Positions 2,952 to 14,211 of a DNA stretch of 64,000 nt are shown piece after piece. A model generated the notes under the pieces. That model saw only the letters and a program-made list of their open reading frames with translations. It searched no databases and was not told the DNA's origin. How positions within the stretch are numbered: position 1 is the first letter of the stretch; the number at the start of each line of letters is the position of its first letter. The position numbers were made by a program, and so were the translations under genes. Origin of the DNA: Arthrobacter zhangbolii (GTDB lineage: Bacteria; Actinomycetota; Actinomycetes; Actinomycetales; Micrococcaceae); NCBI RefSeq assembly GCF_022869865.1, contig NZ_CP094984.1, positions 1,240,001-1,304,000 of the forward strand, given 5' to 3'.

Positions 2952-3233
2952 ATGTCACGCGTGTTGTCCACCGAGCAGGCGAAGTCTGCCATCAACCAGG
3001 TGCAGTCCATCATCAACGGCGGGTTCACCGACCAGATTCAGGCGCTGGACGCGCAGGGCAAGATCCTGTCAGACCCGAACGTATGGGACGGCCCGCTGGC
3101 CGCCCAGTTCCGCGGTTCAACGTGGCCGGAAACCAAGGCAGCGCTGGATAAGGCCCGCCAGGAGCTCGAAGAGCTGCGTACGCAGCTGCAGAAGATTTCG
3201 CAGGACATCTTCTCCGCAGGCGGCGGCGCGTAA
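2952..3233 (+). CDS. WXG100 family protein (ESX/type VII secreted type)
   Basis: 93-residue, almost entirely helical protein with the diagnostic WDG turn at residues 45-47 between two amphipathic helices. This is the length and form of WXG100 proteins, which dimerise and are exported by type VII (ESX) systems, often together with a toxin encoded next door. The ATG at 2952 is preferred because it follows AGAGGGGGAAA and gives the standard family length. An upstream in-frame ATG would add 56 residues with no family resemblance. It is the first gene of the RHS toxin island, 248 bases before the RHS gene, with a stem-loop in between. It is probably a secretion partner of the RHS protein (inference). 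No ESX machinery is visible in the window. Confidence 0.85.
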   Translation: MSRVLSTEQAKSAINQVQSIINGGFTDQIQALDAQGKILSDPNVWDGPLAAQFRGSTWPETKAALDKARQELEELRTQLQKISQDIFSAGGGA

Positions 3234-3245
3234 GCGAGCCGTTCC

Positions 3246-3301
3246 CGTCCGCGTTGTAAGGGCCGGATAGCTGTTCCGCTGCCGCGGACGGCTATCCGGC
3301 C
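3246..3301 (+). other. Stem-loop with possible pseudoknot between WXG100 and RHS genes
   Basis: GGCCGGATAGC (3261-3271) pairs perfectly with GCTATCCGGCC (3291-3301). The 8-base element CGTCCGCG (3246-3253) is complementary to CGCGGACG (3283-3290), which sits inside the loop of that hairpin, so the two pairings could form an H-type pseudoknot. There is no U-tract. It may attenuate read-through from the WXG100 gene into the toxin gene. The rest of 3302-3481 shows no gene and no clear promoter. Confidence 0.5.
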
Positions 3302-3481
3302 GGCACGCGCTTTGGACCGGCCGGGCAATCCATTCGCCCCGGCTGTTCGGCCGGTGGTCGCTTCCGGCCGGTTTTGACCGGTTTTCCCTTGACGTTCCGG
3401 CGCCGGTGTTTCGTCCCCGCAGGTACGCCCAAGGTTGTTTGATTCTTCTTTTCCAGTTCTTGCAGTGGGGGACCCTGATTT

Positions 3482-6400
3482 ATGTCTGAGTCTAAGTTTG
3501 TCGAAGTTCCGTTGTTGCCCGAGGATGCGCAGGGACGGTTTGTCTACTCCGTAGCTGAAGAGATGAAGCAGGCGTTTGAGAACGCGGCGGCACGCCTCGA
3601 AGGGCAGGCCGGCTCCCGGGCATCATTCGTGTCCACCGGTATCGAGGATTTCAAGGGCGCGTTCGCGGACATCTTCCAGGAGAACGCCGCTACTGCAGCC
3701 GTTGACGCGGCGAACCTGGCAACTGCCCTTCGCACTGTGGCCAAATATGCCGGGCAGATGATTCCGCTGGCACGCGAAGAAGATGCCAGGCGCAGGGAAA
3801 ACAATGAATGGGTGTGGCGGCACAACAACCGCAGCTGGCTGGAGGAAGTCGGAGACTGGATCTGGGGGGAGGGGGAGCGGCCCAACCAGGAACGGGGACC
3901 GGCCCCGACGTTCGCACCCGCCACCGCGGTCACCGGCAGCCGCAGAACCCCGCCGTCCGGGAACGCCGGAGGCAACGGAGGCGGGACGTCCTCGGCGCGG
4001 CCGTCGAACCTGCGCAGTTTCGCGGTGGGAGCCCGGGGACTGGACGCTGAGCTGGTCGGTGCTCCCGGCAGCCTGGAAAGCCACCTGTCCACGTTTGCTG
4101 CCCAGTGCAACTGGGGCACCATCGAGGCCTCGGGGGTCCTGAGGGCCTACCGTGCGTACCTGACCGCCAACGAAAACGACGCCCGGTGGGCCATCACGGT
4201 GGCGGATGCCTTTGCCGCAGCCGGGGGAGACGGGAACGTTTCCACCCTTTCGGATGCAGCTCTTGCCGCAGCCCTGGCCGCAGCCGGTGTGGACACCAGC
4301 CGGAGCGCCCTCGCCATCGACCCGCCGACCGCGGCCGGGGCCATCCCTACCACCGGTTACGCCAATGACCCGGTGAACACGGCCACGGGTAACTTCATTG
4401 AGCCGGAAACGGACCTGGCCTTCGCCGGCAGGGCTTCCAGCCTGGCGCTGACCCGGATGTATAACTCTCTGCCTTCGGGCCTGGAATCTCCCGGCGTGTT
4501 CGGCCCGGGGTGGACGTCCGTCCTGGACCAGCACCTGGTGCTGTCGGATGAGGGCTGCCGCTGGGTCCTGGCTGACGGCCGTGCCGTGGACTTTCCCCGC
4601 GAAGGCGAGGGCTGGGGCCGCGCCGTGGGAGAGAACTTCTGGGTTGCCCGCGAACCGGCAACCACTACGCCCCTGACGGACCTGGCCCTGCCCGAGGGCA
4701 GTACCGAACTGCTGGTGGTGCGCGACAACCAGGGCGCCTGGTGGGCCTACAGCGTTACCGGCGTGTGGCTTGGCGCCGGCGCCGGTCCGGGCCGCACCAT
4801 CTCCGTCCACCACGAATCTGCAGCCGACGGCGCCAACGACGCCGGTGCCTCCGCCCGGGTGTCCAGGCTTGCCCACGCCTGCGGCCGTTTCCTCGACGTG
4901 GACTACAGCGACGGCCGCGCCGCCGTCGTACGGACCTCAGACGGCCGGCGGGTGGAGTACGGCTACGACGACGCCGGCCGTCTCGTCACCGTCACTACGG
5001 AAACCGGCACCCGGACGTACCGGTGGAACGAGGCCGGCCTGATTGACGCGGTGTACTCCGCTGCCGGCGTGCTCGAAGCGGAGAACACCTACGACGAGCA
5101 GGGCCGGGTGATCCTGCAGCTGACCCAGCATGGCCGCCGCACCCGCTTCGCGTACCTGCCCGGACGGGTCACGGTTGTCTCGGATGAGGACGGCACACGC
5201 TCCAACTCCTGGATCGCCGATAGCAAGGGCCGGCTGGTCGGGGTGCTGGACTCCCACGATCAGCGCCAGTCCATGGCCTATGACCGGCACGGCAATCTGG
5301 TCTCCCTGACCGAACGCGACGGATCCGTCACCGTCCACGCCTATGACCTGCGCGGCCGCCGCATCCGTACCGTGACGCCCGAGGGTGCGGACCTGACCTA
5401 CGGGTGGGACGAGCAGGACCGGATCACCACCCTGGTCACCGAATCAGGGTCCGTCGTTACCTATGAATATGCCGATGACCTTTCCCGGGATCCGTCGGTG
5501 ATCCTCGATCCGCTGGGCGGTCGGACGGAGCTGACCTGGGACCGGGGGCTGCTGACCCGGGTGACCGACCCGGCCGGGGTAACCGTCGAGTTCGACTACG
5601 ACAACTACGGCGACCTGATTGCCACCCGCAACGCAGTCGGGGACACGGCAAGGGTCCTCCGCGACGCAGCCGGCCGCCCGGTGGCAGCCATTACCCCCTC
5701 GGGTGCTGCCACCCGCTTCACGTACAACGCTGCCGGGCTGCTCATCCGGCGCGAGGAAGCCGACGGTGCAGTCTGGTCCTTTGAGCATGATGCCGCCGGA
5801 CGGATCACGGCGTCCATCGCCCCCGACGGGGGCCGGACGGAACTGGAATACGCGGCCAATGGGGAACTGGTCCGCACCATCGACCCCCTGGGCCGGGCCA
5901 TTGAGCGGGAGTTTGACGAACTGGGCAACGTCACCGCAGCCATTCTGCCCGACGGTGCCCGCTGGGGTTTCACCCATGACACCCTCTCCCGGCTCACCGG
6001 GATCACCGATCCGGCCGGGCACGACTGGATCCGGGAGTACGACAGGATCGGCAACCTCACCGCCGTCGTCGACCCCACCGGCGTCCGCTCAGAGGCGAGT
6101 ACGGACCGGAAAACGGGCACGGCCACCCTCGCCAACGCGTTCTCCACCTCCACTTACAGCTTCGATGAGTACGGGCGACCCGTCCGGGCCGAAGCTCCCG
6201 ACGGCTCCGCTGAGCTGATCACCTATGACGCGGCCGGGAACCCGGTGGAGCTCGTGGACGGGGAAGGCGGGCTGACCCTGCTGGGACGGGACGTCTCCGG
6301 AAAAATCACCTCCATCACCTCGCCGTCCGGGGCCGTGACCCGGTACGAGTACGACATTTGCGGACGGCCCTGGAAGACCGTCGATCCGCTGGGCGCGGTC

Positions 6401-9001
6401 ACCGAACTGGTCTACGACGCCGACCAGCGGGTGGCAGCCCGGATTCTGCCCACCGGTGAAGCCGAAATGTTCGAGTACGACGCCGCCGGCCGCCTGGCAT
6501 TACGCGTCACGCCCGGAAACGGTGCAGCCCGCTACGGCTACGACAAGGCCGGCCGGCTGAATTTCTCCCAGGACTCCTGGTACGGCACACGCCGGTTCAA
6601 GTACAACACCGCCGGAGAGCTCATCGAGTCGGTCAACGGCCTGGGCGGACGGACCCGGTTCGAGTACGACCTCCGGGGACGCCTGGTGCGGATCACCGAC
6701 CCGCTGGGCGGCGTCACCGAACGTACGTACACGGAGACCGACAGCATCGCCTCGGTCCGCGACCCGCTCGGCCGGGTCACAACGTCAACCTATGATCCGG
6801 CTGGCCGGCAGCTTTCCCACACCGACCCGGACGGGAACACCACCAGCTGGTCCTATGACCGTTCCGGACAGCAGGTCACTACCTCCTACAACGGGAAGCA
6901 GCTCGCCCGCATCGAACGTGACCGGTTGTCCCGTCGGGTGGTCATCGCGGACTCAACGGCCGGGAACGGGCTCACCGTGGAGCACGAACTCGGGTTCAAC
7001 CGCCGCGGCCAGCTGACCTCCCGCACCCGCGGCGCCCAGGGGCTCTCCTGGAACTACGACGCCGACGGGCACCGAATGTCCTTCACCGACACCTCCGGTA
7101 CCACCACCACTTACGTTCGGGACGCCGTCGGCCGCGTGAAGACCGTGCACAACCCCCGTCTGGGGGAGGCGGCGTTCACCTATGATCCGGCAGGCCGGCT
7201 GGTTGCCGCCACAGCTGGTGCCCTGGTGCAGGAATGGCAATACCGCAACGGGTACTCTGCCGAACACAGCCGCACCGATCGGACGGATGACGGCGCGCCC
7301 GACACCACGCTGATCGGCCGGGACGGGGACGGGAGGATCACCGGCCTGACCCGTGCCGGAGCAGTGACCCGCTACGCCTATGACAACGCCGGCCAGCTGG
7401 CAGCTGCCGCCACCACCCGCGGTGAGGGAGCGGGGGCCTCCGTCCGTGCGCTGGTCTCGGAATGGCAGTACGACGCCGGCGGCCGCCTGGTGCGGGAGAT
7501 GACTCCGGCCGGGCCGCGGACGTATGCCTATGACGTTGCCGGGGAACTGACCTCCGTCACGGAGCCGGACGGGGCAAGGACTGAATATGTCTATGACGGT
7601 CTCGGCCGCCGGTCGCGGCTGATTGGTCCGGACGGGTCCTGGACCGAATATTCCTGGAGTCCCACCGGTTTCCTCCAAGCGGCAGTGGAACGGGATCGCG
7701 ACGGGAACGAAACCTCCCGGCATGAGGTATGGGTGGATGCTCTGGGTGAGCTGGCTTCCGTGGACGGGTGCCAGGCGTGGTGGGACACCGCGAACCCGGT
7801 CCCCACCTTGGCTGGAATTGACGGCGAGCAGGTGCTGAACCTGCCCGGCGGAATCACGGGTATTGGAGAGGCGTGGACCGCGGCGGGCTGGCGGACGGCA
7901 CGTCCGACGGACCACGCCGATCCGTGGGCGGTGCTCGGAAGTCCGGTACTGCCCGAACCCGCTGGTGCAGCCGGTGCAGCCGGTGTTGCTCCCGGACTGG
8001 CAGGGGTACTCTCCGCAGGGATCCGGCTGACCGGCAACGGCGGCCTGGACATAGCGGGCCTGGAGTGGCTAGGTGCCCGCGCCTACGACCCGGCTACACG
8101 CGGTTTCCTGTCCACGGACCCGCTCGCCCCGGTCCTGGGTGCGGGCTGGGACGGCAACCCGTATTCCTATGCGGGCAACAATCCGCTTAACACCACTGAC
8201 CCGACGGGTCTGCGTCCGCTCACCGATGAGGATCTGAAGGCCTACGACGCCGCGAACGGCGGTGCGCTGGCAGCGGCCTGGGACTTCGTGAAGGAGAACA
8301 AGGACTATCTGATCGGCGGTGCCATGGTGGTTGTCGGCGGCGCCCTGATGCTCAGCGGGGTCGGCGGCCCGGCGGGCCTCGCCCTCGTAGCTGCCGGTGC
8401 CGACACCATCATCCAAAAGGCAACTACGGGTTCAGTGAACTGGGGCCAGGTGGCAGTGTCCGGGGCCGTCGGCTGGATAGCCGGTCCCATCGCCGGCAAG
8501 GCCGGCCACGCCGTCGTCGCGGGTCTGAGCCGCGCAGCGGCAACCCAGGCGGGCAAGGCTGCCATCACCAACGGAGCGATTGGCGGAGTCGTCAACACGG
8601 GAATGTACCTTGTAACGAATCCCAAGGAAGACTGGTCGTGGGAGGGTGCCGGAGGTGCTCTTGCCGGTGGTGTGGTGACAGGCATGATAAGCCCGCAGGC
8701 GGGATACCTCTCCGCTCCGCTGGCGGGCATTGAAGCCAAGCTTGTCCAGTACGCGGTGGCCAGCGGCGGCGCCGTGCTGGGCGGTGGCCTGGAGAAGTAC
8801 ATCACCGGCGATGATTACACGCTTGCGGATATCGGCTTCGACGTTATTGGAGGAAGCGTCCTCAGCCACTTCCCAGGGGCATCACAGCTGAATCCGGGCG
8901 TTCCCGGGTGGGTGGATCATTCCCTGGCCGCCTATGCGGGAGGCCACGCATCGATAATTTCCAGCGGGCTCGAATTTGTGGCCCGTGAGATTGTCCCTTA
9001 A
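3482..9001 (+). CDS. RHS/YD-repeat polymorphic toxin with WXG-like N-terminus
   Basis: 1839 residues. Residues 1-110 form a helical hairpin-like region resembling WXG100/LXG delivery domains, and residues 135-175 are a Pro/Gly-rich linker. Residues about 293-370 (starting GYANDPVNTATGNF) match the DUF6531 module that opens many RHS toxins. About 450-1500 is a long run of YD repeats (forms of YDxxGRLxxxxxPxG) that would build the hollow RHS cocoon. The RHS core ends at about 1527-1578 with GARAYDPATRGFLSTDPL and YSYAGNNPLNTTDPTG. The remaining ~260 residues are the variable tip: Gly/Ala-rich hydrophobic stretches (from about 1605 on) and a short polar tail, with no nuclease, deaminase, ADP-ribosyltransferase or peptidase motif I recognise. 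A membrane-active toxin is therefore plausible (inference). Two small membrane proteins follow directly and are likely immunity proteins. The start ATG at 3482 follows GTGGGGGA. Confidence 0.88.
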   Translation: MSESKFVEVPLLPEDAQGRFVYSVAEEMKQAFENAAARLEGQAGSRASFVSTGIEDFKGAFADIFQENAATAAVDAANLATALRTVAKYAGQMIPLAREEDARRRENNEWVWRHNNRSWLEEVGDWIWGEGERPNQERGPAPTFAPATAVTGSRRTPPSGNAGGNGGGTSSARPSNLRSFAVGARGLDAELVGAPGSLESHLSTFAAQCNWGTIEASGVLRAYRAYLTANENDARWAITVADAFAAAGGDGNVSTLSDAALAAALAAAGVDTSRSALAIDPPTAAGAIPTTGYANDPVNTATGNFIEPETDLAFAGRASSLALTRMYNSLPSGLESPGVFGPGWTSVLDQHLVLSDEGCRWVLADGRAVDFPREGEGWGRAVGENFWVAREPATTTPLTDLALPEGSTELLVVRDNQGAWWAYSVTGVWLGAGAGPGRTISVHHESAADGANDAGASARVSRLAHACGRFLDVDYSDGRAAVVRTSDGRRVEYGYDDAGRLVTVTTETGTRTYRWNEAGLIDAVYSAAGVLEAENTYDEQGRVILQLTQHGRRTRFAYLPGRVTVVSDEDGTRSNSWIADSKGRLVGVLDSHDQRQSMAYDRHGNLVSLTERDGSVTVHAYDLRGRRIRTVTPEGADLTYGWDEQDRITTLVTESGSVVTYEYADDLSRDPSVILDPLGGRTELTWDRGLLTRVTDPAGVTVEFDYDNYGDLIATRNAVGDTARVLRDAAGRPVAAITPSGAATRFTYNAAGLLIRREEADGAVWSFEHDAAGRITASIAPDGGRTELEYAANGELVRTIDPLGRAIEREFDELGNVTAAILPDGARWGFTHDTLSRLTGITDPAGHDWIREYDRIGNLTAVVDPTGVRSEASTDRKTGTATLANAFSTSTYSFDEYGRPVRAEAPDGSAELITYDAAGNPVELVDGEGGLTLLGRDVSGKITSITSPSGAVTRYEYDICGRPWKTVDPLGAVTELVYDADQRVAARILPTGEAEMFEYDAAGRLALRVTPGNGAARYGYDKAGRLNFSQDSWYGTRRFKYNTAGELIESVNGLGGRTRFEYDLRGRLVRITDPLGGVTERTYTETDSIASVRDPLGRVTTSTYDPAGRQLSHTDPDGNTTSWSYDRSGQQVTTSYNGKQLARIERDRLSRRVVIADSTAGNGLTVEHELGFNRRGQLTSRTRGAQGLSWNYDADGHRMSFTDTSGTTTTYVRDAVGRVKTVHNPRLGEAAFTYDPAGRLVAATAGALVQEWQYRNGYSAEHSRTDRTDDGAPDTTLIGRDGDGRITGLTRAGAVTRYAYDNAGQLAAAATTRGEGAGASVRALVSEWQYDAGGRLVREMTPAGPRTYAYDVAGELTSVTEPDGARTEYVYDGLGRRSRLIGPDGSWTEYSWSPTGFLQAAVERDRDGNETSRHEVWVDALGELASVDGCQAWWDTANPVPTLAGIDGEQVLNLPGGITGIGEAWTAAGWRTARPTDHADPWAVLGSPVLPEPAGAAGAAGVAPGLAGVLSAGIRLTGNGGLDIAGLEWLGARAYDPATRGFLSTDPLAPVLGAGWDGNPYSYAGNNPLNTTDPTGLRPLTDEDLKAYDAANGGALAAAWDFVKENKDYLIGGAMVVVGGALMLSGVGGPAGLALVAAGADTIIQKATTGSVNWGQVAVSGAVGWIAGPIAGKAGHAVVAGLSRAAATQAGKAAITNGAIGGVVNTGMYLVTNPKEDWSWEGAGGALAGGVVTGMISPQAGYLSAPLAGIEAKLVQYAVASGGAVLGGGLEKYITGDDYTLADIGFDVIGGSVLSHFPGASQLNPGVPGWVDHSLAAYAGGHASIISSGLEFVAREIVP

Positions 9002-9019
9002 TAAACCCGCATAGCCGCA

Positions 9020-9053
9020 GTGTGGGCCCGGTCTGATGTTCCCGGGACCACAC
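9020..9053 (+). terminator. Stem-loop after the RHS gene
   Basis: GTGTGGGCCCGG (9020-9031) pairs with CCGGGACCACAC (9042-9053) with one mismatch; the loop is 10 bases. There is no long U-run, so termination would be partial at best. It separates the toxin gene from the immunity-gene promoter. Confidence 0.45.
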
Positions 9054-9064
9054 ACCGTTTCCGC

Positions 9065-9070
9065 TATTCT
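9065..9070 (+). promoter_or_regulatory. -10 box giving the immunity genes their own promoter
   Basis: TATTCT, followed after exactly 7 bases by an ATG at 9078. This is the same geometry as several leaderless starts in this window. It lies after the RHS stop and hairpin, so the downstream pair can be transcribed without the toxin. No strong -35 was found. Confidence 0.45.
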
Positions 9071-9077
9071 TGAAGGC

Positions 9078-9122
9078 ATGAAATCGTCATGGGCAAAGTC
9101 AGGAAGTCGCCGTGGAAACTGA
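9078..9122 (+). CDS. Possible 14-codon leader ORF overlapping first immunity gene
   Basis: ATG at 9078, seven bases after TATTCT, opens a 14-residue frame (MKSSWAKSGSRRGN) whose stop at 9120-9122 lies inside the start of the next gene (GTG 9112) in another frame. If the transcript is leaderless, this frame is translated first and could couple translation to the immunity gene. The evidence is position only. Confidence 0.2.
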   Translation: MKSSWAKSGSRRGN

Positions 9123-9531
9123 GAAGCAACCGGCGCCCGGGCCTGAACGCCCTGCCAGAGAGCTGAGCGAAGTGGATCTGCTGCTGGGGAAGAAAACGGT
9201 CAGGGTCATCGAAATCATGTGCCTGGCTGCCATTGCGGTCTGCGCAGGTATTGCGGTTTTTGTTTTTGCGAGCGTCCCGTTGGATACCAAATTGCCGTAC
9301 AACGGGCAGTTCGGCAGGAACGGAATTCCCATGCCCATCGCGATGCTTGCCGTCTTCCTGGTCCTCACGGGCCTGTGGAGGGCAACGAAGAAGCCGGATG
9401 CACACCACCTGAGCAAGGGCGCCCGTGTGAGGGTACCGATCCTCGGAGCTGTGCTCATCCTCGCTTTCGTCGGGGCGCAGTGGGCCATGGCGCATGCAAT
9501 CCTCGTTGAAGGCGGCGCCCTTCCGGCATAG
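9112..9531 (+). CDS. Small membrane protein, likely immunity protein to RHS toxin (copy 1)
   Basis: 139 residues with a charged N-terminus (about 30 residues) and three hydrophobic segments at about 38-62, 77-98 and 111-130. The loop motif KKPDAHH sits between the second and third. It starts at GTG 9112, six bases after AGGAAG; no ATG fits this frame. It is a close paralogue of the next gene: CLAAIAVCAGIAVFV, the PY.GQF element and KKPDAHH are shared at matching spacing. I recognise no named family. Immunity genes normally sit directly after their RHS toxin, and a membrane immunity protein fits a toxin tip that is hydrophobic. That role is inference. Confidence 0.7.
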   Translation: METEKQPAPGPERPARELSEVDLLLGKKTVRVIEIMCLAAIAVCAGIAVFVFASVPLDTKLPYNGQFGRNGIPMPIAMLAVFLVLTGLWRATKKPDAHHLSKGARVRVPILGAVLILAFVGAQWAMAHAILVEGGALPA

Positions 9532-9552
9532 CCGCCGTCCGGAGGCTAAGGA

Positions 9553-9954
9553 ATGGCACTGAACCAAAAGAATGATGAACCGCCGGGCCATCTGACCCCT
9601 CAGGACCTTGTGCTGGGCGCGAAGGCCAGCCGATATCTTGACCTGCTGTGTCTGGCCGCCATAGCGGTCTGCGCGGGCATAGCTGTCTTCGTGGCATTCA
9701 GCGTTCCGCTCGGGACACGCATGCCTTACAGCGGGCAGTTCAGCCGGAGCGGTCTTCCCTGGCCCGTCGCTTTGGGTGTGACGCTGCTTGTCCTCTTTGG
9801 GCTCTGGCGGTCAGGTAAGAAACCGGACGCGCACCATATGGGAAAGAAGGCGCGTTTCGGCGTGTACACCCTCGGAAGCGCAATGGTGGTCGCCTGCGTT
9901 ATCGGCCAGTGGATGATGGCCCGGTCGATACTCATTCAAGGCGGCGCCTGGTAA
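9553..9954 (+). CDS. Small membrane protein, likely immunity protein to RHS toxin (copy 2)
   Basis: 133 residues, the tandem paralogue of the preceding gene. It has three membrane segments in the same positions and the same signature elements (CLAAIAVCAGIAVFV, PYSGQF, KKPDAHH). The N-terminal ~25 residues and the last segment differ most, which is where specificity might have diverged. ATG 9553 follows GGAGGCTAAGGA. It lies 21 bases after copy 1, so the two are cotranscribed. The pair probably arose by local duplication. Whether both protect against the same toxin tip, or one keeps immunity to a lost or alternative tip, cannot be told from sequence. Confidence 0.7.
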   Translation: MALNQKNDEPPGHLTPQDLVLGAKASRYLDLLCLAAIAVCAGIAVFVAFSVPLGTRMPYSGQFSRSGLPWPVALGVTLLVLFGLWRSGKKPDAHHMGKKARFGVYTLGSAMVVACVIGQWMMARSILIQGGAW

Positions 9955-10005: not shown

Positions 10006-10473
10006 TTAGCGCCGGGATCCGGGCTGCAGCAGGGGAGTGGCCCGCAGCGGGATCAGCTCACCCATGGCCAGATTGGTGTCGCAGCGCTGCACGCCGTCCA
10101 CCGCCAGTATCTGCTTGTTGATCCGGAACAGGTCCTCCGCATCGGCAGCGACCACCCGCAGCAGGATGTCCGCGTCCCCGGTAAGCCCGTGCGCCTCGGT
10201 CACTTCAGGAACTTCCGCCAGATCCGCGGTAATCCGGGCCAGCGCCGGCTGATGGACATGCACGTGGACAAACGCCATCAGCGGATATCCCAACGCCGCC
10301 GGGTTGATCCGGCGTTCGAACGGCAGGAACGCCCCCTTGCGCTCCAAGCCTGCCAACCGGGCCTGCACAGTGTTGCGGGAGAGGCCAAGCACAGCAGCCA
10401 ACGCCACCGCTGTGCGTTGGGGATCTTCTGCCAGCGCCAGAAGCAGGCGGCGGTCGGTGGCGTCAAGGAGCAT
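10006..10473 (-). CDS. Lrp/AsnC family transcriptional regulator (likely of the bkd operon)
   Basis: 155 residues. An N-terminal helix-turn-helix begins at LDATDRRLLLALAEDP (about residues 2-50, recognition region LGLSRNTVQARLAGLERKG). The C-terminal RAM/ligand domain (about 65-145) includes AFVHVHVH and GDADILLRVVAAD. This is the standard size of Lrp/AsnC proteins, which form octamers and bind amino acids. It is transcribed away from the branched-chain dehydrogenase operon, the usual arrangement for a regulator of that operon; the effector is presumably a branched-chain amino acid or its oxoacid (inference). The ATG at 10473 is chosen because it starts at the family's usual position; a TAGCGT box lies 8 bases before it. 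An earlier in-frame start would add 33 atypical residues. Confidence 0.88.
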   Translation of the reverse strand: MLLDATDRRLLLALAEDPQRTAVALAAVLGLSRNTVQARLAGLERKGAFLPFERRINPAALGYPLMAFVHVHVHQPALARITADLAEVPEVTEAHGLTGDADILLRVVAADAEDLFRINKQILAVDGVQRCDTNLAMGELIPLRATPLLQPGSRR

Positions 10474-10557
10474 AGTGCGCAACGCTAGCACGCCCCTTGA
10501 CCGCTTTATAGGGCAGGATGCTCGGTCTTTCGGGAAATGGTTGTGCCACCTGCCGGG

Positions 10558-10573
10558 TGTGAGTAGGGTCACA
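10558..10573. promoter_or_regulatory. Perfect CRP/GlxR-type operator between lrp and bkd operon
   Basis: TGTGA-GTAGGG-TCACA is an exact match to TGTGA-N6-TCACA. It lies 85 bases from the Lrp start and 77 bases before the E1alpha start, so one cAMP-responsive regulator could act on both directions. Confidence 0.7.
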
Positions 10574-10649
10574 TTACCCGGGCAATGGAGCGCGGGATCA
10601 GTTCGGCCCCGCCAACCCTGGGGCCCAACCCGGAAGGATACGAATCCCA

Positions 10650-11783
10650 GTGTCCCTGCATACCCCGGTGCGGCACCCGGAAAACTCCGGCAGTTCCCCC
10701 ACCGACCCCTATGTCCAGCTTGTTACACCGGACGGCATCCGCGTCCCCGATCCGATCTACGACCGCTGGGTCGACGATATTGACGGCGCCCGCCTCCGCG
10801 AGCTCTACCTCGACATGGCGGTCATCCGGCGCATCGATACCGAAGCCACCGCCCTGCAGCGCCAGGGTGAGCTGGGCCTGTGGCCGCCGCTGCTCGGGCA
10901 GGAAGCGTCGCAGATCGGCTCGGCCCGGGCCCTGCGCCCCTCGGACTTTGTGTTCTCCAGCTACCGCGAAAACGGAGTGGCGTACTGCCGCGGCGTGGGC
11001 ATGGAGGATCTCATGCGCGTCTGGCGCGGCAACGCCGCCGCCGGCTGGGACCCGTATGCCGTGAACATGGCCCCCACCCAGGTGATCATCGGGGCCCAGG
11101 CCCTGCACGCCGCGGGGTTTGCCATGGGCATCACCCGTGACGGCACCGACGACGCCGCCATCAGCTACTTCGGTGACGGTGCCACCAGCCAGGGCGATGT
11201 CAACGAAGCCATGGTCTTCGCCGCGAGCTACAGCTCGCCGGTCATTTTCTTCTGCACGAACAACCAGTGGGCCATCTCCGAACCGGTGACCCTGCAGGCA
11301 CAGGTGCCTATTGCCAACCGTGCCCCCGGATTTGGGATTCCCTCCACCCGGGTAGACGGCAATGACGTCCTGGCCGTCATGGCCGCCACCCGGGAGGCGC
11401 TGGAACGTGCGCGCTCCGGACACGGCCCGACCTTCATCGAGGCCGTCACCTACCGGATGGGCCCGCACACCACGGCCGATGACCCCACCCGGTACCGGGA
11501 CGCAGCCGAGCTGGACGACTGGAAGGCCAAGGACCCGCTGACCCGGATCGAGGCGCTGCTGACGCAGATGGGACTGTTCGGCGCTGACTTCACCGCCGAC
11601 GTCGCCGCAAAAACGGATGCCGCAGCGGCCGAGCTTCGGGCGGCCTGCCTGGGCATGCCTGACCCGGCGCCTGCCGATGTCTTCGCCCACGTCTATTCCG
11701 AGCCCAACTCCTGGCTGGACCGCCAGCAGGAGCAATACTCGCGCTACCTCAACGGTTTCGCGCCAGAGGAGAACCGCGCATGA
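10650..11783 (+). CDS. Branched-chain 2-oxoacid dehydrogenase E1 alpha subunit
   Basis: 377 residues. E1 alpha binds thiamine diphosphate and, with E1 beta, decarboxylates 2-oxoacids and passes the acyl group to the lipoyl arm of E2. The ThDP motif is visible as GDGATSQGDVNEA, with the closing NNQWAIS about 30 residues later. The substrate-side stretch LGQEASQIGSA and the phosphorylation-loop-like YRMGPHTTADDPTRYR are typical of BCKDH/PDH E1 alpha. GTG 10650 follows GGAAGGA. It is the first gene of a three-gene operon and overlaps E1 beta by four bases. Branched-chain specificity is preferred over pyruvate because this family is the split alpha/beta type, actinobacterial PDH normally uses a single-chain AceE, and an Lrp regulator and a leucine operon lie nearby. 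Confidence 0.88.
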   Translation: MSLHTPVRHPENSGSSPTDPYVQLVTPDGIRVPDPIYDRWVDDIDGARLRELYLDMAVIRRIDTEATALQRQGELGLWPPLLGQEASQIGSARALRPSDFVFSSYRENGVAYCRGVGMEDLMRVWRGNAAAGWDPYAVNMAPTQVIIGAQALHAAGFAMGITRDGTDDAAISYFGDGATSQGDVNEAMVFAASYSSPVIFFCTNNQWAISEPVTLQAQVPIANRAPGFGIPSTRVDGNDVLAVMAATREALERARSGHGPTFIEAVTYRMGPHTTADDPTRYRDAAELDDWKAKDPLTRIEALLTQMGLFGADFTADVAAKTDAAAAELRAACLGMPDPAPADVFAHVYSEPNSWLDRQQEQYSRYLNGFAPEENRA

Positions 11784-12805
11784 CCACCATGACTTTCGGC
11801 AAAGCCATCACAGCGGGTCTCCGGCGCGCGATGGAGAAGGACCCCAAGGTCCTGGTGATGGGCGAAGACGTCGGCAAGCTCGGCGGCGTTTTCCGGATTA
11901 CCGACGGATTGCAGCAGGATTTCGGGCCCCAGCGCGTAGTGGACACCCCGCTGGCCGAATCCGGCATCATGGGTACCGCCGTCGGACTTGCCTTCCGCGG
12001 CTACCGTCCCGTGGTGGAGATTCAGTTCGACGGGTTCATCTATCCGGCCTTTGACCAGATTGTGTCCCAGGTAGCAAAAATGCACTACCGCACCAGGGGC
12101 GCCGTCTCACTGCCGCTGACCATCCGGGTGCCCTTCGGCGGCGGCATCGGTTCCCCGGAGCACCACTCGGAATCCCCGGAGGCGTACTTCACCCACACTT
12201 CCGGGCTGCGTGTGATCAGTGTGTCCAACCCGCAGGATGCCTACACGATGATCCAGCAGGCCATCGCCTCCAATGACCCGGTGCTCTATTTCGAGCCGAA
12301 GCGCCGCTACCACGTTAAGGGAGAAGTGGACCTGGAAGCGGAACCGGAGCTGCCCATGGGCTCGGCCCGGGTACTGACCGCCGGTACCGACGTCACCCTG
12401 GTGACCTACGGACCGCTGGTACCCACCGCGCGCGATGCGGCCGTGGCTGCCTCCGACGAGGGTGTGTCAGTGGAGGTCATCGACCTGCGCTCGCTGGCGC
12501 CCATCGACTTCGACACAGTGGAGGCCTCCGTACGGAAGACCGGCCGCCTGGTGATCACCCATGAAGCCGCGCAGTCCGGCGGCCTGGGTGCAGAGATTGC
12601 CGCCAGCATCACCGAGCGCTGCTTCAACTACCTCGAGCATGCGCCCGTGCGGGTCACCGGCTTCGACATCCCGTATCCGCCGGCACGGCTCGAATCTCAC
12701 CATCTGCCGGATCTGGACCGGATCCTGGATGGTGTGGACTGTGTGCTGGACCGGCCCAGCTCCCTCTCCGCCCCCATCCTCAGCGCTGTGCCGGCGGTGG
12801 GCTGA
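11780..12805 (+). CDS. Branched-chain 2-oxoacid dehydrogenase E1 beta subunit
   Basis: 341 residues, the usual length for E1 beta. The N-terminal pyrimidine-binding domain contains VMGEDVGKLGGVFRIT, VVDTPLAESGIMGTAVGLA and VEIQFDGFIYPAFDQ. The C-terminal transketolase domain contains DVTLVTYGPLV, SVEVIDLRSLAPID and a conserved VITHEAAQSGGLGAEI. It pairs with E1 alpha to form the alpha2beta2 decarboxylase. The ATG overlaps the E1 alpha stop (ATGA) and its own stop shares a base with the E2 start (TGATG), so all three are tightly coupled. No E3 (lipoamide dehydrogenase) gene is present; that subunit must come from elsewhere. Confidence 0.9.
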   Translation: MTTMTFGKAITAGLRRAMEKDPKVLVMGEDVGKLGGVFRITDGLQQDFGPQRVVDTPLAESGIMGTAVGLAFRGYRPVVEIQFDGFIYPAFDQIVSQVAKMHYRTRGAVSLPLTIRVPFGGGIGSPEHHSESPEAYFTHTSGLRVISVSNPQDAYTMIQQAIASNDPVLYFEPKRRYHVKGEVDLEAEPELPMGSARVLTAGTDVTLVTYGPLVPTARDAAVAASDEGVSVEVIDLRSLAPIDFDTVEASVRKTGRLVITHEAAQSGGLGAEIAASITERCFNYLEHAPVRVTGFDIPYPPARLESHHLPDLDRILDGVDCVLDRPSSLSAPILSAVPAVG

Positions 12806-14211
12806 TGCTGCGCGAATTCCGCCTCCCGGATCTGGGGGAGGGGCTCACCGAGTCCGAAATCGTGAACTGGTATGTCGCCGTGGGGGACAGCGTGCAGCTG
12901 AACCAGGTGATCGCCGATGTGGAGACAGCCAAGGCAGTGGTCGAACTGCCCTCGCCGTACGCGGGTGTGGTGGCACGGCTGCACGAGCAGCCCGGGACCG
13001 TAGTGGAGGTGGGGTCACCGATAGTCTCCTTCGAAGTGCCCGCCGGAGACACTCCCGGGGATACGGACCCTGCGCCGGCAGGTGGAGCCCCCGCCAAGCG
13101 GGAGCCGAACCTGGTGGGCTATGGCGCCCTGCCCGACGCGGCCGGACGCCCGGCCCGGCGCCGGCGGTCGGTTCCGGTAGCGGCGGCATCCATGGCGCCG
13201 GCTGAACCCGTGGCGCCGGCGGCAGTTGATACGCCGAAGGACGAACCGGCTCCCGCGCCGGTGTCCTTCCCGGCCGCGGCACCCGCCGGGCCGGAGAACC
13301 CCGTGCAGGAACGTCCCCGCTCCACCCCGCCGGTCCGCAAGCTGGCCCGGGATCTCTCCGTGGACCTCACCTTGGTGCGCGGAACGGGGCCAGGCGGGCT
13401 GGTGGTGCGGGCCGACGTCGTGCGCGCCGCCTCACCGGCAGCCACACCCGACGCCGCTCCCGCCGCCGGAGTGGAGACGGTACCGGCGCCCGTGCAGGCC
13501 GTGGAGCCGGGCCGGGAGGAAAGAGTACCGGTCTCAGGTATCCGCAAGCACACCGCCGCGGCCATGGTGGCCAGTGCCTTCACGGCCCCGCACGCAACGG
13601 TTTTCCTGACCGTGGATGTCACTCCCAGCATGGAACTGCTGGCCCGGCTCCGTAAGCAACCTGCCTTCGACGGGGTCAAGCTGTCCCCGCTGACCCTTGC
13701 AGCCAAGGCTGTCTGCCTGGGATTGAAGCGTTTCCCGGCGCTGAACTCGCGGTGGGATGAGCCGGCCCGGGAGATCATCCGCTACAACTACGTCAACCTG
13801 GGTATTGCTGCTGCCACACCGCGGGGGCTGATGGTTCCCAACATCAAGGACGCGCACGCGCTTAGCCTGCACGGGCTCGCCTCAGCGGTGACGGAACTGG
13901 CGCAAACGGCACGGGAGGGGAGAACAACGCCTGCCGCGCTGAGCGGCGGAACCATCTCGATCTCCAACGTGGGGGTGTTCGGAGTGGATGCCGGAACCCC
14001 GATCCTGAATCCAGGCGAAGCCGCGATTTTGGCACTCGGGGCTGTCCGGCGGCAGCCGTGGGAGTACAACGGAGACATCGCGCTGCGGCAGGTCATGACG
14101 CTGAGCCTCTCCTTCGACCACCGGCTGGTGGACGGGGAACAGGGAGCAGGGTTCCTCAGTGAAGTGGGCGCGGTGCTGGCCGAACCGGCGCTGGCACTGG
14201 CCATGATGTAA
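12805..14211 (+). CDS. Dihydrolipoamide acyltransferase E2 of branched-chain dehydrogenase
   Basis: 468 residues with the full E2 plan. A single lipoyl domain (about 1-78) has the lipoyl-lysine at K43 in DVETAKAVVEL. A long Ala/Pro-rich linker follows, then an E3-binding domain at about 170-210 (STPPVRKLARDLSVDLTLVRGTG). A second linker leads to the catalytic domain from about 240 to the end, with the HxxxDG active-site motif in SFDHRLVDGEQG. It transfers the branched acyl group from E1 to CoA. It is the last gene of the operon, followed by a strong terminator. One lipoyl domain per chain, rather than two or three, fits branched-chain complexes. Confidence 0.92.
   Translation: MLREFRLPDLGEGLTESEIVNWYVAVGDSVQLNQVIADVETAKAVVELPSPYAGVVARLHEQPGTVVEVGSPIVSFEVPAGDTPGDTDPAPAGGAPAKREPNLVGYGALPDAAGRPARRRRSVPVAAASMAPAEPVAPAAVDTPKDEPAPAPVSFPAAAPAGPENPVQERPRSTPPVRKLARDLSVDLTLVRGTGPGGLVVRADVVRAASPAATPDAAPAAGVETVPAPVQAVEPGREERVPVSGIRKHTAAAMVASAFTAPHATVFLTVDVTPSMELLARLRKQPAFDGVKLSPLTLAAKAVCLGLKRFPALNSRWDEPAREIIRYNYVNLGIAAATPRGLMVPNIKDAHALSLHGLASAVTELAQTAREGRTTPAALSGGTISISNVGVFGVDAGTPILNPGEAAILALGAVRRQPWEYNGDIALRQVMTLSLSFDHRLVDGEQGAGFLSEVGAVLAEPALALAMM

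Follow-up and report, generated by a model that had tools for sequence, protein, structure and literature searches.

The window analysed here, a stretch of 64,000 nucleotides at positions 1240001-1304000 of contig C1 of Arthrobacter zhangbolii (genome G000, a single contig of 3.46 Mb), carries four plus-strand genes coding in succession for a WXG100 protein, an RHS protein of 1839 residues and two related membrane proteins, named here IM1 and IM2. It is fairly probable that this module specifies an Rhs toxin exported by a type VII secretion system (T7SS) for competition between bacteria, with a C-terminal tip acting on membranes, IM1 as cognate immunity protein and IM2 as an accessory one. At the sequence level, this reading is supported by the gene anatomy, the linkage and the co-variation of the tip and the IM proteins, the co-occurrence with a type VII-like apparatus, and the presence of orphan IM genes in non-producing genomes; export, cleavage, toxicity, a membrane target, the topology of the IM proteins and protection are inferred. 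Action on membranes is the likeliest reading of the hydrophobicity of the tip and the predicted membrane location of its partner.

Linkage of the tip with the IM family

The last 140 residues of the RHS protein were searched in 395 genomes of the family, giving matches in 24 genomes at E up to 0.01, with 12 matches in 11 genomes, the window's own apart, at E < 1e-20. In intact homologues (8 genomes), the match extends to the end of open RHS frames of 1840-1955 residues; therefore, this domain closes the RHS protein. Stop-to-stop frames were scanned with two profile hidden Markov models (HMM), one for the tip and one for the IM family. A same-strand IM homologue was found within 158 nt after 22 of 25 tip pieces, two of the 22 being halves of one relic tip (L049), and the three tip pieces lacking an IM gene are scraps covering profile positions 2-38 (twice) and 99-143 (once). 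This count leaves out loci L104, L106-L109 and L111, among which are a relic tip without IM (L104), a weak IM-like piece accompanied by two tip-like pieces, also weak (L106) and a tip resembling class III, described below (L107). All eight full-length RHS genes with this tip are followed by an IM gene, that of genome G349 reading in two frames.

A matched control was provided by the pre-tip, the segment preceding the tip, which is present in 78 loci, mostly of Actinobacteria, with other tips behind it in the large majority. All 9 loci having an own-type tip (E < 1e-10) also have an IM gene, versus 2 of 69 loci with other tips (Fisher 3e-10), the loci being related to each other and thus not fully independent. 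The 69 include the weak tip matches L120, L132 and L186, as well as contigs that stop soon after the tip and thus give no full test for a missing IM. Among the loci of this control, L162 shares sequence with the array of L117, and only the final third of IM is present in L122. The nine own-type loci, six of which appear to be genomes also found in the tip search, include Frigoribacterium sp. PhB160 and Klugiella xanthotipulae, both belonging to another family, the Microbacteriaceae. Besides, tip and IM distances are correlated (r 0.72, permutation p 1e-4, n 17, with three of the pairs supplied by L113 and L046, a near copy of the window, omitted), also without the two Microbacteriaceae (r 0.64, n 15), and shared descent of whole genomes could add to this correlation. 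Adjacency, control and co-variation are all in line with the pairing of tip and membrane protein proposed in the first-pass annotation, the two being inherited together.

Searched from the other side, the IM family gave 56 pieces in 29 of the 395 genomes. Of these, 21 follow a tip directly, 18 have RHS or tip sequence at a distance of up to 10 kb, and 17 are orphans. Several of the 56 are parts of one broken gene, and one orphan (G372) has a tip scrap (E 0.02) beside it. Homologues of the small proteins occurring mostly without RHS genes had been named as evidence that would speak against the pair. This is not the distribution observed, because the first two groups together make up 39 of the 56 pieces. 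More generally, the RHS N-terminal domain, the WXG100 protein, the tip and the membrane-protein family each recur elsewhere with significant E-values; hence, the module is not a chance assembly.

Type VII-like apparatus and predicted export

In the host genome, the protein that best matches a T7SS-type ATPase has 1459 aa, with an FHA domain and two FtsK/SpoIIIE stretches, and is encoded at 394-399 kb of G000. Its gene is adjacent to a kinase gene, and PF01580, PF00498 and PF00069 score over the Pfam cut-offs at this locus. An FHA-domain FtsK ATPase and a Ser/Thr kinase are thus found in one locus, a combination expected of the T7SSd subtype. Within G000:C1:392000-410000 (L231, L043), these two genes are accompanied by genes for proteins of 447 and 964 aa, the larger of which begins, by eye, like a lipoprotein, and by genes for a WXG100 protein 95% identical to that of the window and for an RHS protein. 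This RHS protein bears a different, Gly-rich tip and is followed by a 157-aa protein with a TM-like (transmembrane-like) stretch.

Near full-length relatives of the ATPase (83-87% identity) occur in 7 other congeneric genomes; at E 1e-50, the search extends to 26 of 29 genomes, of which 18 have more distant ATPases only. The close ATPase, the 964-aa protein (E 1e-20), the RHS N-terminal domain (E 1e-15) and the WXG100 protein (E 1e-10) all occur in one identical set of 8 genomes among the 29 congeneric ones, the host included (p 2e-7), and, at these limits, none of them in the other 21. The 8 genomes with WXG100 hold 21 copies of it (87-100% identity), 18 of which have the RHS N-terminal domain shortly downstream on the same strand. 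From the architecture and this co-occurrence, the RHS protein is predicted to be exported by a type VII system.

N-termini like that of the RHS protein (27-31% identity) begin frames of 635-718 aa at G000:C1:819739-820503 (L044), G009:C1:2620148 and G019:C1:2787172. The L044 protein has no Pfam match, and a 96% identical WXG100 gene lies beside those of G009 and G019. These proteins form a possible second class of substrates. A second FHA-FtsK ATPase, called at 1366 aa, is encoded at G000:C1:2508350-2510197 (L232), with no WXG100 or RHS match listed nearby.

Properties of the tip

Residues 1579-1839 had initially been taken as the tip. This holds for residues from about 1700 to the end, which form the specific tip, and not for residues 1579-1664, because the latter belong to the pre-tip common to other tips. 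The specific domain is hydrophobic and poor in charges. This is illustrated by the grand average of hydropathy (GRAVY) of the last 130 residues, whose median is 0.19 (0.01 to 0.40) in 8 own-type tips versus -0.47 (-1.06 to -0.08) in 50 other tips, with no overlap of the ranges; charges in this stretch are also fewer in the own-type tips. No family was found for the tip in Pfam and PHROGs at E < 0.02, and no enzyme was recognised. Since IM1 and IM2 are likewise without family match in the libraries searched, the first-pass view that both tip and immunity family are unrecognised is upheld. A glycine zipper, our first idea of a defined tip motif, was rejected because shuffled sequences of the same composition yield about as many such motifs.

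The membrane proteins IM1 and IM2

IM1 and IM2 share 55% identity over 125 aa as well as the motif KKPDAHH, and each has three TM segments by Kyte-Doolittle hydropathy. The structure model of IM1 consists of three helices (20-54, 74-91 and 104-133) with a mean pLDDT (predicted local distance difference test) of 84. The charge of the loops suggests that the KKPDAHH loop (family mean of 5.5 K+R) lies inside and loop 54-70 (2.5) outside. The latter is the best-conserved region of the family (mean top-residue frequency 0.71), and five of the six invariant columns lie in it or at its edge. No match to IM1 or IM2 was found at E < 0.02 in Pfam, PHROGs and NCBIfam (best E 0.044 and 0.026, far below the cut-offs), nor in PADLOC at E 0.1; the best E in PHROGs was 0.044. 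A weak match to IM1 residues 35-107 in many congeneric genomes (E 1e-4 to 0.03) was set aside as possible chance TM similarity. In the host itself, G000:C1:3397560-3397760 (L045) shows a weak match to IM1 (31%, E 0.03), which may be due to chance likeness of TM segments or to an ancient relative on the chromosome.

The two genes had been described as twins. They are indeed a tandem of paralogues, and an obligate twin is rejected because genome G018, the nearest relative seen (module 97-100% identical to the window's), keeps IM1 alone beside a 97-99% identical tip, its next called gene corresponding to that downstream of IM2 in the window. An obligate heterodimer of the ExiCD kind was discarded for the same reason, which leaves room for joint action of IM1 and IM2 when both are present. 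In the tree, IM1 groups with the G018 copy and three array copies (100/99), and IM2 with an orphan from G027 (89/87, weak); the two are not sisters, with weak support. The second tandem IM of G391 groups (100/99) with the first IM of Arthrobacter sp. EpRS71. A simple reading is that IM1 is cognate and that IM2 is accessory, directed against another tip variant. In EpRS71 (L113:6998-12092), three complete tip-IM pairs lie in succession behind one RHS gene; for two of these IM proteins, the nearest relatives are two separate IM proteins of G391.

Gene anatomy

The features of the module are given in Table 1. The RHS protein has the successive parts of an Rhs/YD polymorphic toxin, i.e., DUF6531, YD repeats, an RHS-associated core and a variable tip, and the same core bears different tips within one genome. 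The PF05593 repeats form 24 stretches across the protein (E 2e-113), those of TIGR01643 18 stretches. By analogy with Tse5, the protein is predicted to cleave itself after L1577. The RHS gene, the WXG100 gene and the two membrane-protein genes with three TM segments reported in the first-pass annotation were all retrieved. In contrast, its description of the RHS N-terminus as WXG-like did not stand: no model of Pfam or NCBIfam matched this region, which reads F-K-G, by eye, at the expected position of W-x-G. The N-terminal domain is 48-99% identical among full-length congeneric copies. Beside the module, positions 10006-14211 of the window hold what we take to be an Lrp/AsnC-like regulator gene (minus strand) and genes resembling those for branched-chain keto-acid dehydrogenase subunits.

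Table 1. Position and evidence of the features of the module (window coordinates).
Feature	Coordinates	Strand	Evidence or remark
WXG100 protein, 93 aa; predicted T7SS export partner	2952..3233	+	W-D-G motif visible; family scores below cut-off
RHS gene, 1839 aa	3482-9001	+	DUF6531, RHS repeats, RHS-associated core
RHS N-terminal domain, residues 1-295; probable T7SS targeting domain	3482..4366	+	Co-occurrence in the same 8/29 genomes
DUF6531, residues 296-371	4367..4594	+	PF20148, E 1.1e-20
YD/RHS repeat shell, residues ~372-1513	4595..8020	+	PF05593, TIGR01643
RHS-associated core, residues 1514-1577, ending in DPTGL	8021..8212	+	TIGR03696, E 2.6e-12, complete to the end
Shared pre-tip, residues 1578-1664 (about)	8213..8473	+	Present in 78 loci
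Specific tip domain, residues ~1700-1839; hydrophobic, Gly/Ala-rich, predicted all-helical	8579..8998	+	Homologues, composition, model
IM1, 139 aa, GTG start, three TM segments; predicted cognate immunity protein	9112-9531	+	Hydropathy, model, adjacency, co-variation
IM2, 133 aa, tandem relative, three TM segments; predicted accessory immunity protein	9553-9954	+	Similarity to IM1

Weighing of the interpretation and alternative readings

Several results weigh against a membrane-acting toxin delivered by a T7SS. Regarding export, the apparatus genes lie about 840 kb from the module. The EccC model scores 134.7 bits on the 1459-aa ATPase, below its cut-off of 346.55, and also matches below cut-off in 8 of 14 control genomes; the T7SS assignment therefore rests on architecture and company. 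The assignment is further weakened by the WXG100 models, which score below their cut-offs on the 93-aa protein: 19.7 bits (E 0.0011) for PF06013 (cut-off 27.3) and 18.9 bits for TIGR03930 (cut-off 44.85). Type VII delivery, as first proposed, thus has the architecture of the locus and the co-occurrence with the apparatus in its favour, and not the EccC and WXG100 models. Regarding the tip, a classical pore helix is disfavoured by the fact that the sole strong TM-like segment (1610-1628) falls within the shared pre-tip, and a simple pore by the last 150 residues, where no 19-residue stretch attains a Kyte-Doolittle value of 1.3. GxxxG and glycine-zipper motifs are not enriched, with 2 in the last 140 residues versus 2.2 expected from composition and 6 versus 4.1 in the whole tip (p 0.24). 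The structure model is all-helical and poor (pLDDT 58, predicted template modelling score 0.49), its structural matches fall below the level considered meaningful by the tool, and the similarity of the tip to AopB (E 0.022) and to the Tse5-CT profile (8cp6, E 0.088) is not significant. Finally, the orphan status of 17 of the 56 IM pieces also belongs on this side.

The main competing explanation is that the tip is an unrecognised extracytoplasmic enzyme acting, in a TelC-like manner, on lipid II, lipids or wall precursors, the membrane protein protecting the cell from outside. A membrane-located immunity protein would fit this case too, as described for TelC/TipC (PMC12744356). Residues kept in at least 13 of 15 tips beyond position 1690 include N1697, N1705, Y1709, Y1779 and D1787, and some of the weak structural matches of the tip model are prenyl synthases. 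However, D1787 is the single acidic residue so conserved, and H, K, R, C, E and S are absent from the conserved positions of this region. Moreover, the hydrophobic, low-charge composition of the tip is unlike that of the 50 other tips, and it has no significant Pfam match. Overall, an enzyme appears unlikely.

The membrane proteins might instead be export chaperones or secretion partners of the tip. Their tight adjacency to one tip class would suit a dedicated partner as well, but orphan IM genes occur in five congeneric genomes (G007, G011, G012, G023 and G027) devoid of the RHS N-terminal domain, WXG100 and the 964-aa protein, and one orphan is located on a plasmid of A. caoxuetaonis. Such genes in genomes without the export set fit immunity and not a secretion chaperone. 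In addition, a single array of G010 comprises six IM copies, one of them broken, and the second IM copy is missing beside the almost identical tip of G018, so that we consider a chaperone role quite improbable. Least probable of all is a worn-down or purely structural, non-toxic end accompanied by a hitch-hiking membrane-protein gene, which could account for the lack of an enzyme domain and for several relic copies in arrays, but hardly for a domain that retains 43-53% identity in other genera, co-varies with IM and, in 8 genomes, forms the end of open RHS frames 1840-1955 residues long.

For a membrane-acting Rhs toxin with its immunity proteins, the following sequence of events can be proposed. 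The WXG100 protein and the N-terminal domain would bring the RHS protein to the type VII system encoded elsewhere in the genome (G000 392-404 kb). By analogy with Tse5, the YD shell would enclose the tip and cut it off after DPTGL. The pre-tip and the helical domain of about 140 residues may then insert into, or act at, the cytoplasmic membrane of the target from outside, upsetting it through depolarisation or a small pore. In the producer, IM1, a putative three-helix inner-membrane protein whose KKPDAHH loop would lie inside and whose best-conserved loop would lie outside, would block the tip, guarding the membrane from outside as the immunity proteins of EsxX may do. IM2 would provide a second, accessory immunity, probably against a different tip variant.

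Other tip classes and RHS loci

Tips were also sorted into classes, class I being the window's type and chosen by tip sequence alone. According to an automatic rule, single rows of which may be wrong, the next gene encodes a membrane protein in 8 of 8 cases for class I, 5 of 7 for class III, 2 of 2 for class II and 3 of 50 for the remainder (Fisher 3e-10), proteins with one TM segment being counted as membrane proteins. Weak class calls (L119 to class I and 12 rows to class II, at E 1e-7 or worse) were kept among the remaining 50; of the three membrane neighbours counted in that group, two belong to such weak class II rows (L140, L153). Because the table of neighbours had already been seen when part of classes II and III was selected, the rule that hydrophobic tips have membrane neighbours is exploratory for these two. 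Between the tips of class I and those of class III, hhalign indicates a remote relationship (probability 97.8).

Class III hydrophobic tips (L052, L054, L107, L120, L132, L134, L150, L152, L163 and L187) are often followed by membrane proteins of 130-279 aa. Class II comprises L043, L049, L058, L059, L172 and L173; proteins of 151-157 aa, similar by eye, follow L043, L058 and L059, and L172 and L173 are followed by single-TM proteins of 150 and 163 aa. The host has a further full RHS gene at G000:C1:1633358-1646782 (L042), with a soluble-looking, by eye nuclease-like tip and a relic array of RHS pieces starting about 5 kb downstream.

Comparison with known systems

Tse5 is a pore-forming Rhs toxin of the Pseudomonas aeruginosa type VI secretion system (T6SS), with Tsi5 as immunity protein (PMC10684867, PMC9637101). 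Like Tse5, the RHS protein of the window has an Rhs shell and a C-terminal fragment without predicted enzyme activity, predicted here to be cut off after a Leu. Both systems would combine a membrane-acting toxin, proposed here for A. zhangbolii, with an integral-membrane immunity protein encoded nearby. In contrast, Tse5 has a PAAR-like N-terminus and is delivered by the T6SS; its tip of 149 residues matches that of the window only at E 0.088, and Tsi5 has two predicted TM regions versus three for IM1, the two being set side by side by description only.

EsxX with ExiCD, and TelE, represent T7SSb toxins with an LXG domain and a glycine zipper (PMC12744356). These are membrane-acting toxins exported by a T7SS, as predicted for the RHS protein, and in both cases the immunity proteins, putative in the window, are polytopic membrane proteins with additional orphan copies in genomes of non-producers. 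However, they carry LXG where the toxin of the window is an Rhs protein, and the glycine zipper essential in TelE has no enriched counterpart in the tip. Besides, ExiC and ExiD, with six predicted TM segments each, are required together, whereas one gene with three TM segments is present beside the 97-99% identical tip in G018.

Rhs proteins linked to T7SSd have been described in Actinomycetota (PMC11217815). The apparatus set of the host resembles this system, the likeness covering the FHA-domain FtsK ATPase, the Ser/Thr kinase, WXG100 and the Rhs substrate; the 964-aa protein with the lipoprotein-like start would be the candidate for comparison with TsdI. A word search of the text of PMC11217815 gave no mention of Arthrobacter or Micrococc-. 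Finally, immunity genes for EsaG, TsaI and TipC form strings of non-identical members that vary between strains in Bacillota (PMC9484751). The strings of IM genes resemble them, although the families differ and the host phylum there is Bacillota, and the reading of IM2 as accessory agrees with what is described for such T7SS immunity strings.

No title or abstract start on Arthrobacter Rhs toxins or on this tip and immunity family was found in the literature search. The strategy is already known; the combination of T7SS, Rhs shell, non-enzymatic tip and three-TM immunity, like the tip and immunity families themselves, was not found in the libraries and literature searched.

Implications

So far, Rhs pore formers are known from bacteria with a T6SS, and the membrane-acting T7SS toxins known are LXG proteins of Bacillota. 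If true, the module described here would unite the two in environmental Actinobacteria. Beyond the window, we give an even chance to a wider picture in which actinobacterial T7SS export Rhs shells with membrane-inserting tips to Gram-positive competitors. This would involve at least two remotely related tip families, that of the window and class III, and perhaps a third, each paired with separate families of integral-membrane immunity proteins, the genus keeping strings and orphans of immunity genes against foreign variants. The module would also name a tip family and a three-TM immunity family without entry in the libraries searched, and it would allow a direct test of how a type VII system carries a hydrophobic toxin inside an Rhs shell. 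The orphan and tandem immunity genes make the genus good ground for studying the exchange of immunity between strains.

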